Assembly: GCA_024278415.1 (NCBI GenBank) | Contig: JAJRTI010000827.1 | Span: 1 to 18,622 of the forward strand | Reading direction: 5' to 3' | Length of the DNA stretch: 18,622 bases | DNA from: Planctomycetota bacterium | GTDB lineage: Bacteria > Planctomycetota > Brocadiia > JAJRTI01 | In this document: positions 4,509 to 18,622 of the stretch, one piece after another | Layout of the letters: every line of letters starts with the position of its first letter | Numbering within the stretch: position 1 is the first letter of the stretch | Made by a program: the position numbers and the translations under genes | The notes under the pieces: model-generated | Databases searched by the model: none | What the model was told of the DNA's origin: nothing | What the model saw: only the letters and a program-made list of their open reading frames with translations

Positions 4509-4532
4509 GTAGCCGCATGCGCTAGCATGCGG
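4509..4532 (+). repeat. GTAG-footed 8-bp hairpin after guaA (possible terminator)
   Basis: GTAG (4509-4512) is directly followed by CCGCATGC-GCTA-GCATGCGG (4513-4532), a perfect 8-bp stem with 4-nt loop, beginning 5 nt after the guaA stop. There is no U-run, so if it terminates transcription it does so as a REP-like or Rho-assisted barrier. The architecture equals that of the hairpins at 10618-10684. Confidence 0.6.
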
Positions 4533-7715: not shown

Positions 7716-7773
7716 GTGGCGCTCCCAAGCAAGGGCAATCGCGGCTGATTGGGCTATCGGGTAAACGGTGGAG

Positions 7774-7803
7774 AGGATAGGCGTCCAGGGCGGGAGTTGT
7801 CAA
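7774..7803 (-). promoter_or_regulatory. Sigma70-like promoter of the GH106-like gene
   Basis: Read on the minus strand, a perfect -35 box TTGACA (7803-7798) is followed after 18 bp by TATCCT (7779-7774), a 4/6 match to the -10 box. Transcription would begin near 7767, leaving a leader of about 50 nt. Confidence 0.5.
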
Positions 7804-7955
7804 GGCGGCGCGGTTTAGTTGACTGCCAAGCGGGCATCACGTAACATTCCCCGGGGAACCGCGTACGCGGCACAGACCGCTGCGAACTACCCGCCAAAGC
7901 ATCTACGCTTTCTCGCAGACTTCGCTGCGAAAAGGAGGCGGCTGCGCCGCCGTCG

Positions 7956-8043
7956 GGCCGCTTGTAGTAGGGCGATTTATCGCCCGTCTGCCTCGTGAGG
8001 GCAAGGACGTTCGACGGGCGATGAATCGCCCTACTACGAGCCT
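7956..8043 (+). repeat. Paired REP (BIME-like) element, copy A
   Basis: The 24-bp arms 7964-7987 and 8014-8037 are inverted repeats with 23/24 matches. Each arm is itself a near-palindrome (GGGCGAT..ATCGCCC) entered from GTAG. The spacer is 26 bp. The left flank reads GGCCGCTT and the right flank GAGCCT, shared with copies B and C. The nested dyad, GTAG foot and intergenic position match the known BIME architecture. Confidence 0.8.
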
Positions 8044-8063
8044 CGCCACGTCGCGCCGCACAC

Positions 8064-8081
8064 ATCGACAACATGTTGTCG
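8064..8081. repeat. Palindrome ATCGACAACATGTTGTCG, copy 1
   Basis: A perfect 16-bp dyad (CGACAACATGTTGTCG, 8066-8081) lies 39 bp before the radical SAM start. The same 18 bases occur at 18447-18464. There is no unpaired loop, so a dimeric protein site is at least as likely as an RNA hairpin. Confidence 0.6.
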
Positions 8082-8119
8082 CTACATTTGTGTTAACGGG
8101 CTAACGCCCCCGTCCGCAC

Positions 8120-9613
8120 ATGCACGCTGTCCTCGTCTACCGCGGCCGATACCACATCCGGGAAGCGCTCGACTTCGAGACGCTCGCGGCGGTGCTCCGG
8201 CAAGGGGGCCACGAAGTGACGCTCGTGTACGACCCGGACGTGTTCGGCGTCACGGATAACGTGCTCCAGATCGGCTGGCTCGCGCGTCGGCTCTCGGACC
8301 AAGAGCGCATTGTGCAGCGTATCGTCGATGCCAAGCCGGGCGTGGTGCTCCTGAACGTGCTGTCGTCCACGCACGAGTGGTGCCTCGAAGTGGCCGCCCA
8401 AGTCAAGCAGCGCACCGGCGCGGCCACCGTCTTCCTTGGCTTCCATCCCTCCGTGTCCGCCGAGAGCGTGGTGCAGAATGAGGGCGTGGATTACGTGATC
8501 CAGGGCGAGGCCGAGGGCGTCGTCAACCCCCTGCTCGACGCGCTCGCGGACGGCCGCGAACCGAGCGACGTGGGCAACCTGCTCTACCGCAAGAACGGCG
8601 ACGTCGTGCAGACGCGCCGCGCGGAGCCGGTGGATCTCGACGCGCTGCCCCTGCCGGACAAGGACCTGTTCGCGCCGTACGTGTCGCACGCGTATAGCTA
8701 CATGGCCATGGTCAGCCGCGGCTGCCCGTACCTGTGCACCTTCTGCGAAGAGACGTGCAGCAAGAAGCTCTACGGCAGCGGCTACTACCGGCGCAAGAGC
8801 GTGGACACGGTCCTGCGCGAGTTGGCCGAGGGCAAGCGCCGGTACCAATACAAGGAAGTCATCTTCAAGGACTCGTACCTCGCAGTGAATCGCGAATGGA
8901 CGGAGGAACTGATCGCGCGCTACAAGGCCGAGATCGGCGTGCCGTTCAAATGCTTCTGCACGATCCTCGGCTTCGACCGCGACATGGCGCGCCTGCTCAA
9001 GGGCGGCGGGTGCTACGGCATCGAGTTCGGCTTCCAAACGTGGAACGACCGCATCCGCCGCGAGGTGCTGAACCGGCGGGAGACCGCGGAGCAGGCGGTG
9101 GCCGCGTTCGAGGCCTGCGCGGAGGAGAAGCTCTGGTACGACGTGGACCACATGTTCGGCCTGCCCACGGAAACCGAGCAAGACCACATCGAGGGTGCGC
9201 TGCGCTACCGCGAGTTGCGGTACATGAACCGCGTGAAGGTGCACCACCTCCTATACTTGCCGACCGCGGACATCATCGAGCACGGCATCGCCGCGGGCGC
9301 GCTGCCCGCAGACGCGCACGAGCGCCTCGCGGCCGGCTGGGAGAGCGACTTCTACGACGCGCAGGTGGGCAGCGAAGAGGAGCGCAAGGCCATCGCCGGC
9401 TATGCCGCGCTCTACAAGCTGCTGCCGATCATGCCCCGGTGGCTCGTGCGTTGGTTCACGCGGAACGGCCGCGTGCGCTGGTTGCGCCACATCCCGTCCC
9501 CGCTCATGGCCCTGCTCCAGGCGCTCAACGCGCTCCGCACCGGCGACTTGCGCTTCCGCGCGTACCTGAGCTTCTACCCCCGCAAGGTCTGGCTCGGCCT
9601 CCGCAGGCGGTAG
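8120..9613 (+). CDS. B12-binding-domain radical SAM protein
   Basis: The product is 497 residues. An N-terminal cobalamin-binding-like Rossmann domain (about 1-150: HAVLVYRGRYHIREAL, GVVLLNVLSSTH, VFLGFHPSV, YVIQGEAE) is followed by a radical SAM barrel (about 190-400). The [4Fe-4S] motif CPYLCTFC places the ligands at Cys202, Cys206 and Cys209. LPLPDKDLF before the cluster motif is the usual linker. The N-domain lacks DxHxxG, as in class B (BchE/RSMT-like) members. The C-terminal ~90 residues are basic and helical with no recognised domain. The reaction is unknown: methylation of an unactivated carbon or another radical rearrangement is typical for the family. No ribosome-binding site is obvious. 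Paired-REP copies A and B flank the gene. The methyltransferase 264 bp downstream is on the same strand but separated by a repeat. Confidence 0.88.
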   Translation: MHAVLVYRGRYHIREALDFETLAAVLRQGGHEVTLVYDPDVFGVTDNVLQIGWLARRLSDQERIVQRIVDAKPGVVLLNVLSSTHEWCLEVAAQVKQRTGAATVFLGFHPSVSAESVVQNEGVDYVIQGEAEGVVNPLLDALADGREPSDVGNLLYRKNGDVVQTRRAEPVDLDALPLPDKDLFAPYVSHAYSYMAMVSRGCPYLCTFCEETCSKKLYGSGYYRRKSVDTVLRELAEGKRRYQYKEVIFKDSYLAVNREWTEELIARYKAEIGVPFKCFCTILGFDRDMARLLKGGGCYGIEFGFQTWNDRIRREVLNRRETAEQAVAAFEACAEEKLWYDVDHMFGLPTETEQDHIEGALRYRELRYMNRVKVHHLLYLPTADIIEHGIAAGALPADAHERLAAGWESDFYDAQVGSEEERKAIAGYAALYKLLPIMPRWLVRWFTRNGRVRWLRHIPSPLMALLQALNALRTGDLRFRAYLSFYPRKVWLGLRRR

Positions 9614-9653
9614 GCCTCGGAGGAGATATGAAGGACAGGCGGTGAAGGAGATG

Positions 9654-9728
9654 AGGCTCGTAGTAGGGCGATTCATCGCCCGTGGCTACAGACGCAGAGA
9701 CGGGCGATGAATCGCCCTACAAACAGCC
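9654..9728 (-). repeat. Paired REP (BIME-like) element, copy B, inverted
   Basis: The left arm 9660-9683 and right arm 9700-9720 are inverted repeats; the right arm has lost the outer TAC. The outer flanks (AGGCTC on the left, CAAACAGCC on the right) match those of copies A and C only when reversed, so B is in the opposite orientation. It lies between the radical SAM and methyltransferase genes. The rest of the gap (9729-9877) shows nothing else. Confidence 0.75.
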
Positions 9729-9877
9729 TGCCGGCGGCGCGGCGTATCCTTTCTTGCAACGAAGCATCTCAACTCTTGGCACGGCGAGATTCTTCAACCT
9801 TCCGACGGCCGCCACCAACCATTAACCATTCCGAACAGACCGCCGAAGGGCGGGACTCCAAACTCCGAGGCGCCCCA

Positions 9878-10612
9878 ATGATCCGCGAACACAAGAGCGA
9901 CGACTGGCAAGAATACGTGGTGGACTGGAAAGGCGACCCGCACGCGGTCATGGAGCCGCTGGAGCGCGAGATCCAGATCGTGGATGACGCGCTCGCGGCG
10001 CTCGTGGACGCGGGCATGCTCGCGCATACGCAATACGACCACGAGATGTTCCTCGCACACCGCGAGGCGGTCAAGGCGAACTTCGAGATCCCCTGGACCG
10101 GCATCAGCCCGCGCATGCAGCGCTTGCTCTACGCGATCAACGCGATCATGCAGCCCAACGTGATGCTCGCCGCGGGCATCTTCTGCGGCAACACGTTAAT
10201 CTCCAATGCCGGCGCGGCCATCGGGCCCGGCGCCTGCTACCAGGCCGAGAAGTTGGTGGGCATCGAGATCAAGCCGGAGGAGGCCGGCCGCGCGCGGCGT
10301 AACGTCGCGACCATCGACCCCGAGGGCCAGTGCGAGATTCTGGGCATGGACGCGGTCGAGTGGATCGCGGGGTTCGACGGCAACATCGACCTGCTCTACA
10401 TCGACGCGGACGGTGCGTATCTCCAGATCGTGCAGGAAGCCGCCAAGCGCGCGCTGCGGCCCGGCAGCCTCGTTGTGGCCCACAACTCGATCAATCTCGC
10501 CCACCAGATCGCCGACTTCCTCGAATACGTGCGCCACGATGCCCACTTCAGCGAGAGCATGAACATCCATATCGACGACCAGGGCATCGAGGTGTCCATG
10601 TGGCAGGGCTGA
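9878..10612 (+). CDS. Class I SAM-dependent methyltransferase, O-methyltransferase-like
   Basis: The product is 244 residues from the ATG at 9878, with GAGG 7-8 bp upstream; the longer frame to 9707 runs through repeat DNA. A helical N-terminal cap (1-90) is followed by a Rossmann methyltransferase core. The glycine-rich SAM loop is VMLAAGIFCGNTL (95-107), the acidic ribose-binding end of strand 2 is Glu130 in LVGIEI, MDAVEW is near 157-162, and DLLYIDADG (171-179) is the strand-4/metal region typical of caffeoyl-CoA-type and Methyltransf_24 enzymes. The late SLVVAHNSIN replaces the usual DN motif and may mark the substrate end. The substrate is unknown; a small molecule or sugar hydroxyl is likely by family. 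Its link with the radical SAM gene is only by neighbourhood. Confidence 0.75.
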   Translation: MIREHKSDDWQEYVVDWKGDPHAVMEPLEREIQIVDDALAALVDAGMLAHTQYDHEMFLAHREAVKANFEIPWTGISPRMQRLLYAINAIMQPNVMLAAGIFCGNTLISNAGAAIGPGACYQAEKLVGIEIKPEEAGRARRNVATIDPEGQCEILGMDAVEWIAGFDGNIDLLYIDADGAYLQIVQEAAKRALRPGSLVVAHNSINLAHQIADFLEYVRHDAHFSESMNIHIDDQGIEVSMWQG

Positions 10613-10617
10613 TGATT

Positions 10618-10684
10618 GTAGCCGAAGCCGCCAGGCTTCGGGCTCTGTTGGCATGGCCCCCCGAACTCTGGCGAGTTCGGCTAC
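10618..10684. repeat. Pair of GTAG-footed 8-bp hairpins between convergent genes (bidirectional barrier)
   Basis: Two perfect hairpins, CCGAAGCC-GCCA-GGCTTCGG (10622-10641) and CCGAACTC-TGGC-GAGTTCGG (10661-10680), are bracketed by GTAGCCGAA (10618-10626) and TTCGGCTAC (10676-10684), so GTAG stands at both outer ends in inverted orientation. The pair fills the 78-bp gap between the methyltransferase (plus) and the GH32-like gene (minus). The structure is that of a BIME, and the place is right for a two-way transcription terminator. Confidence 0.7.
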
Positions 10685-10690
10685 GTGCGC

Positions 10691-12937
10691 TCACGGCTCC
10701 ACGCGTACCCAAACGCGATCCACGTACATCGTGCAGTTGTTCGTGTTCGGGCAGAAGCCGATGGTCTGGATGCGGTGCACGCCGTCGTCGCCGAAGGGCA
10801 GGCCGGTCGCGGTCTGGTCGCCGACCGTGAGGTCAAACGTCGCGGCCTTGAGGTCCGCGTCGATGGCCACGTCGACCCACTCGTCCCGCGGCACGGTCAT
10901 GCCCTGGATGGGGTTCCGCTTCTTGTGGTAGTAGCTCACCACGCCGTTGGGGTAGAAACGCACGTTGAACGCGCGGCGATCGTACTGGTCCGGCGCGTTG
11001 TCGTACGCGTCGATGTCCACGCAATACTTGTTCGTGGACGGCACGTAGATGCGCGCCTTGACTTGGATGCGGCCCTTCTCCGTATCGGCCGCGTCCTGGG
11101 GGGACAGCTTCACCCAGGCACGTCCGCCGGCTCTGGATTTCTCGTCGCGGCGTTCGGCCTTGAGGTAGTGGTTCTTGCCGGCTTTGCCGCTGCCAATGGG
11201 ATCGTCGCAGAGCACCTGCACGCGGTCGGGGCTGCCCTCGGCGATGTGCCAGCCGCTGCCGTCGCCGCCGGGCGCGGGGTCGAGGTCGTCGTCGGTCGGA
11301 GTGACGCCGGCCTTCACGGACTGGAAGTCGTCGTCGATCGCGACGAATGGCTTGCGGTCGCGATTCTTCTTCGGAATGCCGCCGAACTTGCTCACGTCCG
11401 GCCGCACGGGATCGGGTTGATACGGCACGAATTGGAACGCGTAGAGGTCCGCATCGCGCAGCACGAACCGCAGCCGCACCGGCTTGCCCGCTAGCGCGCG
11501 CACGTCGCCGCCCGCGTACCGCCAGCACACGCGGTAGCGCAAGCTGTCGCAGAAGATCTCCGGGCACTCTTCGAGTGCGTATCCGTCGATGGGCTTGCCG
11601 TCCGCGTCCTGGATTTCGACCTGGATACTGCCCGCGGCCGAGGTGGACGCGTTGAGCACCAAATTGCCGCCCTCGAAGACGAGGGGCTTGGTCACGATCT
11701 CACCGCCGCTGAACGGCGCGTACGCGGACACGAACCCGTCGACCCTCACCGTGTAGCGCCGCACGCTCGTATACGTGCCCTCCCAATAGCCTTCGGTTGC
11801 GTAGAGCGAGATCTCGTCCGGCGCGGCGGGCAGGTGCGAGCGCGTCTCGACCATGCCCCAGAAGACGAAGTTGTCGCCGTAGACCCACGAGTCTTTCTGC
11901 ATGGGTCCGGGCCGAATGAACGCCTCGGCCCAGCGCTTGAAGCGCAGGCCGTCGCGGCTCGTCATGAAGACCGCGTCGGTCACGGTCGTGCCGTAGCGCC
12001 GGCTCGACTTGGCGCGCACCAAGCGCACCTCCTGGCCTGGGAGGTCAAGCATGGGGTCGGACCAGCCGCGATCGTTGTACCGCATGGGAAAGCCCATGAA
12101 GATGTGCGGCGCGCGGTAGTAGGGCTGGACCTGATTCGTGTAGAGCGCCTGCACCGGCGCGCCGGGGTACTCCAGCCACTGCGGCTTGGGGAAGTGGAGG
12201 ATGTCCTTGGACACCGCGGTCATGATGCCGCGCACGCCGGCGTTGAAGTGCCGGTGGTACTCGCGGTATTCCTCGCGCACCGGATCCCAAAACGCGAGAT
12301 TCTGCGAGTCGAACGCGCCGAAGGTTTGGATCGGCTTGTCGCTCATGAGCGAGAAGTGGAGCCCGTCGCCTGACTTGAGCACATACATGCCGCGAGGCTT
12401 CTGGCCAATCGTAATGATCTTGTACTTCTCGTCCGGCGGGCAGTTGGGGTTCGTGTCGATGAACGTCGCGGTGTGCGCGGGGTCGCCGCCGACCTCGGCG
12501 ATGAGCGCGGTATCGACCACGATGTTGTTGGCCTTAGATCCCTCGAACTCGATGATGCCCAGCTCCGGCTTGCGCCAGTGGATGCCGTCGTCACTCTCCG
12601 CGTAGCACAGCACCCAGGGGTGCGTCTTGCGCGCCTGGGCCGGCTTGCCGCCGTGCTCGTAGTGGCCCCCGCGGTAGTACATCTTGTAGAGGTCGCCGTC
12701 CTTGAACACGGATTGGTACCCGCTCGCGTTGCCGCCCCAGGGCTCGTCCGTGCGCAACACGATCTCCTTGCGCTCCGGCCGGTGCAACTGAAGCCGAGCG
12801 CCGCCGGCCATCGACTCGATCAGATACTCATCGACGAACAGCTCCAGGCGCGAGCCGATGCGGATCGGACCGTCTGGGGCCGCGGCGACGATCGAACAGA
12901 CGGAAGCCAGCACGAGGAAGGCGGCGGCTGTGTTCAT
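10691..12937 (-). CDS. Secreted GH32/GH43-like beta-propeller protein with C-terminal sandwich domain
   Basis: The product is 748 residues from the ATG at 12935-12937, which has AGGAG 7-8 bp upstream and is followed at once by a Sec signal peptide (NTAAAFLVLASVCSIVAAA, predicted cleavage near residue 20). The longer frame reaching 13219 runs through a REP pair and is rejected. Residues ~25-500 open with IGSRLELFVDEYLIES and contain GDLYKMYYRGG and LCYAESDDGIHW, repeats typical of five-bladed propellers of the GH32/GH43 type found in PVC bacteria. Residues ~529-748 (DDDFQSVKAG to VDRVWVRVEP) look like a concanavalin/LamG-like sandwich. Catalytic acids cannot be assigned with confidence, so it may be a glycan-binding protein. 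The export signal fits work outside the cytoplasm. Confidence 0.75.
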   Translation of the reverse strand: MNTAAAFLVLASVCSIVAAAPDGPIRIGSRLELFVDEYLIESMAGGARLQLHRPERKEIVLRTDEPWGGNASGYQSVFKDGDLYKMYYRGGHYEHGGKPAQARKTHPWVLCYAESDDGIHWRKPELGIIEFEGSKANNIVVDTALIAEVGGDPAHTATFIDTNPNCPPDEKYKIITIGQKPRGMYVLKSGDGLHFSLMSDKPIQTFGAFDSQNLAFWDPVREEYREYHRHFNAGVRGIMTAVSKDILHFPKPQWLEYPGAPVQALYTNQVQPYYRAPHIFMGFPMRYNDRGWSDPMLDLPGQEVRLVRAKSSRRYGTTVTDAVFMTSRDGLRFKRWAEAFIRPGPMQKDSWVYGDNFVFWGMVETRSHLPAAPDEISLYATEGYWEGTYTSVRRYTVRVDGFVSAYAPFSGGEIVTKPLVFEGGNLVLNASTSAAGSIQVEIQDADGKPIDGYALEECPEIFCDSLRYRVCWRYAGGDVRALAGKPVRLRFVLRDADLYAFQFVPYQPDPVRPDVSKFGGIPKKNRDRKPFVAIDDDFQSVKAGVTPTDDDLDPAPGGDGSGWHIAEGSPDRVQVLCDDPIGSGKAGKNHYLKAERRDEKSRAGGRAWVKLSPQDAADTEKGRIQVKARIYVPSTNKYCVDIDAYDNAPDQYDRRAFNVRFYPNGVVSYYHKKRNPIQGMTVPRDEWVDVAIDADLKAATFDLTVGDQTATGLPFGDDGVHRIQTIGFCPNTNNCTMYVDRVWVRVEP

Positions 12938-13013
12938 GGCGAAGCTCCTGGAGTTGTGTGACGTCGACCATGCCCGGCGCGCGGTCGGCATCGCCGGCGG
13001 CGTGTGTGCCGGT

Positions 13014-13042
13014 AGCGTAATCTCGCCGCGACGCGAAGTCAA
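13014..13042 (-). promoter_or_regulatory. Candidate promoter of the GH32-like gene
   Basis: On the minus strand TTGACT (13042-13037) is followed after 17 bp by TACGCT (13019-13014). The -35 box is a 5/6 match, but the -10 box is only 3/6. The start would be about 70 nt upstream of the ATG. Confidence 0.3.
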
Positions 13043-13062
13043 TGCGTCCTGCTGGACGAGCG

Positions 13063-13141
13063 GGCCGTTTGTAGTAGGGCGATTTATCGCCCGTTGCTTC
13101 GAGGTGCAGAGACGGGCGATGAATCGCCCTACTACGAGCCT
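13063..13141 (+). repeat. Paired REP (BIME-like) element, copy C
   Basis: Arms 13071-13094 and 13112-13135 are 24-bp inverted repeats with one mismatch, identical arm by arm to copy A. The spacer is 17 bp. Flanks GGCCGTTT and GAGCCT match copy A in the same orientation, but the spacer resembles A's only after reversal. The element lies between the divergent GH32-like and cupin genes. Confidence 0.8.
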
Positions 13142-18393: not shown

Positions 18394-18417
18394 GGAGCGG
18401 AAGGCCTTCGCCTTCCG
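18394..18417 (+). repeat. GGAG-footed hairpin, second identical copy
   Basis: GGAG (18394-18397) followed by CGGAAGGC-CTTC-GCCTTCCG (18398-18417) is identical to 1639-1662, some 16.7 kb away. It begins 6 bp after the aldo/keto reductase stop, where it could also act as a transcription barrier. Confidence 0.7.
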
Positions 18418-18446: not shown

Positions 18447-18466
18447 ATCGACAACATGTTGTCGAT
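18447..18466. repeat. 20-bp perfect palindrome, copy 2
   Basis: ATCGACAACATGTTGTCGAT is completely self-complementary without a loop. Its first 18 bases equal 8064-8081. It lies in the gene-free tail of the window. Confidence 0.65.
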
Positions 18467-18474
18467 GTCGCGGC

Positions 18475-18540
18475 TTACTCTTAGTCCTACTCTTAGTCTT
18501 ACTCCTCCGTGTCGTGCGGTTAGAGTAGGACTAAGAGTAA
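18475..18540. repeat. 19-bp inverted repeat made of 12-bp tandem units
   Basis: The left arm 18475-18493 and right arm 18522-18540 are perfect 19-bp reverse complements with a 28-bp loop. The left side is built of the 12-mer TACTCTTAGTC[C/T] (18476-18487, 18488-18499) plus a partial third unit, giving an all-pyrimidine-biased strand unlike the surrounding GC-rich DNA. The remaining bases to 18622 show no gene or further signal. Confidence 0.75.
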
Positions 18541-18622
18541 GACAAAGAGTAGGAGCGGGAACTGCGGCACGGCCGTCCCTTTCTCGCATCTCTTTTTGCA
18601 GGAAGGCGTAGGTTCTTTCAAC

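Follow-up and report, generated by a model that had tools for sequence, protein, structure and literature searches.

Three head-to-head pairs of GTAG-footed hairpins, probably REP pairs moved in trans, share their arm with hairpins of Candidatus Poribacteria

The window, by which we mean the whole stretch of DNA analysed here, comprises 18,622 bases at 65.7% GC and holds three short elements, copies A, B and C, each located between genes (3/3; the gene starts beside them are likely starts, judged by eye). Copy A separates a GH106 gene (minus strand, start 7715) from the divergent gene of a B12-binding radical SAM protein (plus strand, start 8120), copy B lies between the stop of the radical SAM gene (9613) and a methyltransferase gene in tandem with it (start ~9878), and copy C has a minus-strand gene (likely start ~12937) on one side and a cupin gene (13262) on the other, the two again being divergent. 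A Pfam scan of 15 window proteins revealed no Y1 transposase domain. Elsewhere in the window, a small gene at 2321-2614 encodes a ParE-like toxin domain that scores over the Pfam cut-off. The hairpins of copies A, B and C, together with those of a second family, are read here as probable REPs and are as follows.

7964..7987, plus strand: left REP of copy A, with a GTAGTA foot, the 6-bp stem GGGCGA and loop TTTA
8014..8037, minus strand: right REP of copy A, loop TTCA, facing the left REP; divergent intergenic gap 7716-8119
9660..9683, plus strand: left REP of copy B, loop TTCA
9700..9720, minus strand: right REP of copy B, loop TTCA, foot without the outer GTA; tandem gap 9614 to ~9877
13071..13094, plus strand: left REP of copy C, loop TTTA
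13112..13135, minus strand: right REP of copy C, loop TTCA; divergent gap
4509..4532, plus strand: second family, single REP with GTAG, stem CCGCATGC and loop GCTA; convergent gap after guaA (stop 4504)
10618..10641, plus strand: second family, left REP of a head-to-head pair, with GTAG, CCGAAGCC and GCCA; convergent gap 10613-10690
10661..10684, minus strand: second family, right REP of that pair, with GTAG, CCGAACTC and GCCA

The arms of copies A, B and C are one hairpin, GTAG-TA-GGGCGA-TTYA-TCGCCC-GT, arranged as three head-to-head pairs, each an inverted pair with its GTAG ends facing outward. The arm core GGGCGATTNATCGCCC occurs six times (7970-7985, 8016-8031, 9666-9681, 9702-9717, 13077-13092, and 13114-13129), and a search of the window allowing up to 3 mismatches returned the six arms alone, equal to 12 strand matches; dinucleotide shuffles gave a mean of 1.24 arm matches, and 0 of 200 reached 12. 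The full 24-nt sequence GTAGTAGGGCGATTYATCGCCCGT is present in 5 of the 6 arms, the exception being the right arm of copy B, which reads TTTGTAGGGCG with the outer GTA missing. GTAG is located 5' of the palindromic hairpin in all six window arms, and the outer GTAGTA in five of them. Copies A and C have identical left ends (CGGGCCGYTTGTAGTA, loop TTTA) and identical right ends (AGGCTCGTAGTA, loop TTCA), while copy B carries AGGCTCGTAGTA at its left end and the shortened foot at its right. The spacers of the three copies are unlike in both length and sequence, and the four bases 5' of GTAGTA read GYTY in the window arms. The preliminary description had spoken of three copies with nearly identical facing arms, all between genes, in a window devoid of a TnpA-REP (RAYT) protein; the six arms indeed form three inverted pairs, the intergenic location is borne out for each, and the Pfam scan is consistent with the missing enzyme. 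Its arm length of 24 bp holds for five arms, the right arm of copy B being without the outer GTA.

The second family differs in format, with GTAG placed straight before a perfect 8-bp stem and a GCYA loop. Its three hairpins are all situated in convergent gaps, and the stems of its pair (10618-10684) are unequal. It resembles the GTAG plus 8-bp format of the Stenotrophomonas REP as given in the accessible portions of PMC8266576, though its loop has 4 nt vs 3 nt there. The second-family pattern was found in none of 274 loci searched, at least 214 of them Poribacterial, and in no viral contig.

Other repeats were noticed in the window. A 16-nt perfect palindrome, CGACAACATGTTGTCG, is found twice, each time between genes (8066-8081, ~30 bases from copy A, and 18449-18464), and an exact 24-nt repeat, GGAGCGGAAGGCCTTCGCCTTCCG, which forms a perfect 8-bp hairpin with loop CTTC, is found in two intergenic places (1639-1662 and 18394-18417); neither the palindrome nor the 18-nt core of the repeat was present in 174 loci searched. 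A long inverted repeat of TACTCTTAGTC-like units, with 29-nt arms that are 90% complementary, spans 18476-18551. Terminator-like sites directly adjoin copy A (7937-7951, minus strand) and copy B (9729-9744, plus strand).

Folded as single-stranded DNA, every pair reaches z -9.4 to -10.8 on both strands, with 0 of 200 shuffles as good, and when a window pair is folded alone as a single strand, one long arm-to-arm hairpin is favored over a separate REP hairpin in each arm. The strength of the folds on both strands, together with the two adjoining sites, could suggest transcription terminators or RNA-stabilising hairpins that have no mobility. However, no terminator-like site lies within A, B or C, the 3 such sites of the region do not exceed the shuffles (mean 3.2), and Rfam returned no match; moreover, GTAG feet and a head-to-head layout are not required for termination, and A and C are upstream of both their neighbours. 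We thus hold this explanation to be highly improbable.

A reading of A, B and C as REP pairs instead has close precedents. In the accessible portions of PMC8266576, group-3 REPs of Marinomonas consist of GTAG, a 2-base gap, a perfect stem and a loop T-T-N-A, and cleavage assays found the T, T and A of the loop to be essential and its third position free. The TTTA and TTCA loops of the window, on perfect stems two bases after GTAG, have this very form. REPtron Mb of Marinomonas sp. MWYL1 is similar to the window hairpin in that a gap of two bases parts GTAG from a short, perfectly paired stem, and in its T-T-N-A loop; the stem is 6 bp in the window vs 5 bp in REPtron Mb, and the lineages differ (PMC8266576, as far as accessible). 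Di Nocera and colleagues likewise report a two-base gap in GTAG-1 and GTAG-2, and name Planctomycetes among the phyla of the GTAG-tagged REP super-family (available sections of PMC3733652). By description, the window elements follow the GTAG-1/GTAG-2 format, with a dinucleotide gap, a fixed motif after the stem, head-to-head dimers and a mostly intergenic location (PMC3733652, same sections). The fixed motif after the stem is mostly GTY in the window and Poribacteria hairpins.

The exact arm was searched for in one genome for each of 84,980 GTDB species, yielding 91 stretches, of which 90 are titled Poribacteria (from 31 isolates, judging by the titles) and one Phycisphaerae. The same arm as in the window is thereby found in REP arrays of Candidatus Poribacteria (GYTYGTAGTAGGGCGATTYATCGCCCGT), and the arm pattern was absent from viral contigs. 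The Phycisphaerae match (locus L048) was rejected as a chance match, its foot being GAGTAG, its loop TTGA, and its genome offering this single match at up to 2 mismatches. Since the exact arm occurs in no other lineage of the species genomes, close relatives of the window are probably missing from these, or carry an altered arm.

A generalised form of the hairpin is present in 60 of the 84 Poribacteria genomes, with at least 10 in 44 genomes, at least 50 in 11 and a maximum of 195, and the reversed-control pattern gave 1 match in all 84. Among 294 genomes sampled from the phylum of L048 (Planctomycetota by title), it was found in a single genome, with two control matches. We then gathered 331 GTAGTA-N6-TTYA-N6 sites, with pairing not demanded, from 214 Poribacteria loci (1.94 Mb; L048 and other-phylum loci left out): 285 have perfect 6-bp stems and 28 have stems with one mismatch. 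Nine stem codes occur in total, and four of them account for 275 of the 285, frequencies that are biased by the choice of the loci for a GGGCGA arm, a RAYT match or G061/G062 membership. With any 4 bases allowed after a perfect stem, the loop is TTCA in 168 cases, TTTA in 117 and another sequence in 5, and the four bases 5' of GTAGTA are kept in Poribacteria as well, mostly as GTTY.

These Poribacterial hairpins lie outside long ORFs in 94 of 101 clusters, whereas 80% of random positions fall inside. As for divergent gaps, they hold 6 of the 79 classified Poribacterial clusters, vs 50 of 320 gaps overall; the divergent location of two of the three window copies is rare for Poribacterial clusters and counts against the REP reading. 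At locus L061 (7425-7878), a 132-bp unit in which a GGGCGA REP and a GTGCTA REP are joined tail to tail is repeated four times in tandem, while L064, which is orthologous to this array, has one couple only. In another set of loci of a subclade (L007 7052-7530, L071 2480-3200, and others), a Poribacterial REP pair is found within a larger repeat with ATAGGACTTACGCAGTT-like ends, and between the aligned flanks of L071 and L035 there are ~620 bases including this larger repeat with its REP pair vs ~60. A REP within a long ORF is seen in three related loci (L045 1459-1478, L069 5306-5325, and L076 1687-1706); it is decayed in L055 and absent from the homologues L260 and L264.

Y1 transposase domains were present in all 13 element-bearing genomes searched (that of L048 included), and 27 of the 30 loci around them are without a hairpin of the window type. 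Two proteins from the remaining three, hairpin-bearing loci were classified. At L109 the protein is an IS200/IS605 transposase. At L104, a 199-aa protein beside hairpins scores 90.5 bits, vs an NCBIfam cut-off of 80, as a REP-associated tyrosine transposase, and TnpArep 4er8 is its sole match in the PDB up to E 1 (E 8e-8). Relatives of this RAYT were recovered from 18 of the 84 Poribacteria genomes at E<=1e-12. In nine of these genomes the copy is long and uninterrupted, with 71-100% identity (G013, which is the query's own genome, G002, G009, G008, G061, G062, G057, G065, and G049), the other relatives being broken, partial or distant. With one mismatch tolerated in the stem, and with contig ends truncating some loci, 3 to 17 hairpins surround the intact gene at eight of the nine loci; the ninth, in G049, carries none, and this genome has a RAYT and no hairpin. 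The number of hairpins per genome has a median of 60 in the nine RAYT genomes and of 8 in the 75 others (Mann-Whitney p 5e-4, with no correction for kinship). G043, with the most hairpins (195), and G072, with 90, showed no RAYT match at this threshold. The RAYT family is broad: it numbers 1,106 database proteins, and the best 120 include names from Verrucomicrobia, Armatimonadota, Ardenticatenaceae and cyanobacteria.

A RAYT relative at E<=1e-30 was found in 8 of 392 genomes of the phylum of L048. The closest, in G146, is 59% identical, and the hairpins that flank it are of the types GTAGTA-GGACGC-TTGA and GTAGTA-GGGCGC-TTCA, besides one with loop TTAG. This REPtron is similar to the window elements in its GTAGTA foot, 6-bp stem and TTNA loop (3 of 4 hairpins), but has the stems GGACGC and GGGCGC instead. 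Its stem pattern has three matches in G146, all at the RAYT itself, and none in nine other genomes. At ten other RAYT loci of this phylum, where hairpins were counted without a chance control, GTTCGTAGT-footed hairpins with other stems are seen in L163, L164, L167 and L169 and GTAG hairpins of another form in L168 and L171, with none at four loci. Foot and loop tend to stay while the stem varies with lineage, which fits the cleavage assays of the Marinomonas group-3 REP (PMC8266576, accessible portions).

The same variation bears on a reading of the copies as operator sites, in which a regulator of the flanking genes would bind the palindrome GGGCGATTYATCGCCC as double-stranded DNA, with two copies in divergent promoter regions. 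While A and C do lie between divergent genes, copy B follows the 3' end of one gene and precedes another that runs the same way, and the relatives are dispersed, mostly outside divergent gaps, as well as present in a tandem array (L061) and around a RAYT. In addition, stem codes that vary on both sides, with foot and loop nearly fixed, fit recognition of a folded single strand better. An operator role therefore appears very unlikely to us.

The presence of inverted repeats at both ends could also indicate a MITE of a DDE transposase with terminal inverted repeats, and in one Poribacteria subclade (L071, L007) the pair is enclosed by a larger repeat whose ends are TAGGACTTACGCA-like. Yet we see no target-site duplication by eye at A, B or C, hairpins of this kind are also found singly, and a RAYT is embedded among them, making this the least probable of the explanations considered here.

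We conclude with good confidence that A, B and C are REP pairs (BIME/REPIN), that is, non-autonomous and non-coding elements moved by a group-3 RAYT in trans. They are of an already known kind, the GTAG super-family REP pairs of group-3 type. The REP/BIME reading of the preliminary description is supported by the anatomy, by the dispersed hairpins of the same design (at least 10 in 44 of 84 Poribacteria genomes) with 94 of 101 clusters outside long ORFs, and by the hairpin-flanked RAYT. Points against the REP-pair explanation are the divergent gaps of two copies, the hairpin-rich genomes G043 and G072 without a RAYT match at the threshold, G049 with a RAYT and no hairpin, the apparently slow movement, the homodimeric form of the window pairs and their preference for one long hairpin. 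The preliminary description's suggestion of an arm family specific to this lineage does not stand as worded, as the exact arm is common to Poribacteria, outside which the window genes fall. A group-3 RAYT, an HUH tyrosine transposase related to IS200/IS605, would bind and cut the single-stranded GTAG-footed hairpins of the pair and, supplied in trans, would copy or move the pair into intergenic DNA, single-strand cleavage presumably being the step. The window's own genome would be expected to carry such a RAYT and many more copies, and the RAYT/REP pair may have passed from one lineage to another or have been inherited from some distant ancestor. In the REPINs of Pseudomonas fluorescens the mobile unit is reportedly also an inverted REP pair served by a RAYT in trans, as in our preferred explanation, though their sequence and lineage are said to be unlike the window's.

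Related Poribacterial loci differ in the copy number of hairpins and in their presence. For G061 and G062, 46 and 50 clusters were queried against the regions of the other genome (flanks ~95-100% identical), and the hairpin is kept at 16 of 16 comparable distinct sites, a count in which shared sites are favored because the choice of regions centered on REPs for either genome. Two sites differ in REP number and length, and one reads 2 vs 1 at nearly equal length; the array beside the RAYT has 2 vs 4 REPs, with flanks 98.6-99.6% identical. Movement between near-identical genomes looks slow. Across all loci, 82 of 225 clusters have an ortholog in another locus, and the hairpin is lacking in 12 of 145 non-independent locus comparisons, the 12 stemming from three sites and including three L055 cases that are decayed remnants. 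In the comparison of L077 with L079 the REP is present with an altered foot, GTAGTC. The cleanest case, L073 vs L245, is a near-clean REP absence, with an extra stretch of ~55 bases that holds the REP.

The genes of the window place it outside the sampled Poribacteria. Window GuaA has a best identity of 61% in the 84 Poribacteria genomes vs 67% in 294 genomes of the phylum of L048. Among plasmids, guaA gave a single partial match (72% over 56% of the query, in a Methylobacterium record), which does not help to place the window. The closest proteins are 77-78% identical for GuaA (P0121-P0123) and 83-84% for the radical SAM protein (P0002 and P0003). In a GuaA tree of 36 rows, the window and three proteins are separated from five Poribacteria by a 100/100 branch, and the organism-named rows on the window side are planctomycetes in 6 of 6 cases; the tree is of one gene, unrooted, and made from hand-picked rows with no third phylum knowingly sampled. 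At E<=1e-60, none of the 84 Poribacteria genomes matches the radical SAM protein. This protein has 158 database matches, itself counted, whose names include Planctomycetota, Kiritimatiellae and Sumerlaeota, and at E<=1e-150 it was found in 0 of 75 genomes of the class of the best GuaA match. A position of the window within the sampled Poribacteria was rejected on the GuaA identity, the GuaA tree and the radical SAM absence taken together.

The two sides differ in how the hairpins are paired. In Poribacteria, the 56 pairs that stand head to head within 100 bp are without exception heterodimers of two different stem codes, most commonly GGGCAA with GTGCGA (30) and GCGCAA with GGGCGA (20); G061 and G062, both included in this count, are near-copies, and with equal-flank pairs counted once there remain 50 distinct pairs with 0 homodimers. 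In contrast, the window pairs, whose copies were first noticed for their similar arms and beside which the window has no other GTAGTA hairpin of TTYA loop type, are homodimers in 3 of 3 cases (Fisher p 3e-5 vs 0 of 56). The Candidatus Poribacteria arrays thus have the arm of the window in head-to-head pairs of different stems, where the window has equal stems. Unequal stems would be predicted to disfavor one long arm-to-arm hairpin, and the homodimeric form of the pair may be lineage-specific. It is possible, though we consider it rather doubtful, that the code GTAGTA/GGGCGA/TTYA, which the sampled neighbors of the window's probable lineage lack, crossed phyla between Poribacteria and another lineage, one that is probably Planctomycetota-like, where the heterodimers (56/56) then became homodimers (3/3).

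A literature search, as far as sources were accessible, returned no paper connecting Poribacteria with REPs. The word Poribacteria occurs 0 times in the available main text of the GTAG super-family paper (PMC3733652), and in the accessible passages of Poribacteria papers "palindromic" is absent, "rep" is a journal name, and transposase genes are mentioned once each.

This work adds to Poribacteria a REP/RAYT family whose stem codes form a discrete set. Hairpin-flanked RAYTs that are 39 to 100% identical, with similar foot and loop and different stems, make up a natural series for recognition by group-3 RAYTs. A rule of heterodimers would be relevant to the way in which REP pairs escape one long hairpin. 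If the cross-phylum transfer were true, stem identity within a pair would be under selection, perhaps against the long arm-to-arm hairpin, and the specificity between RAYT and stem would be readable from natural pairs. The stem code common across lineages and the contrast of homodimers and heterodimers are worth following.
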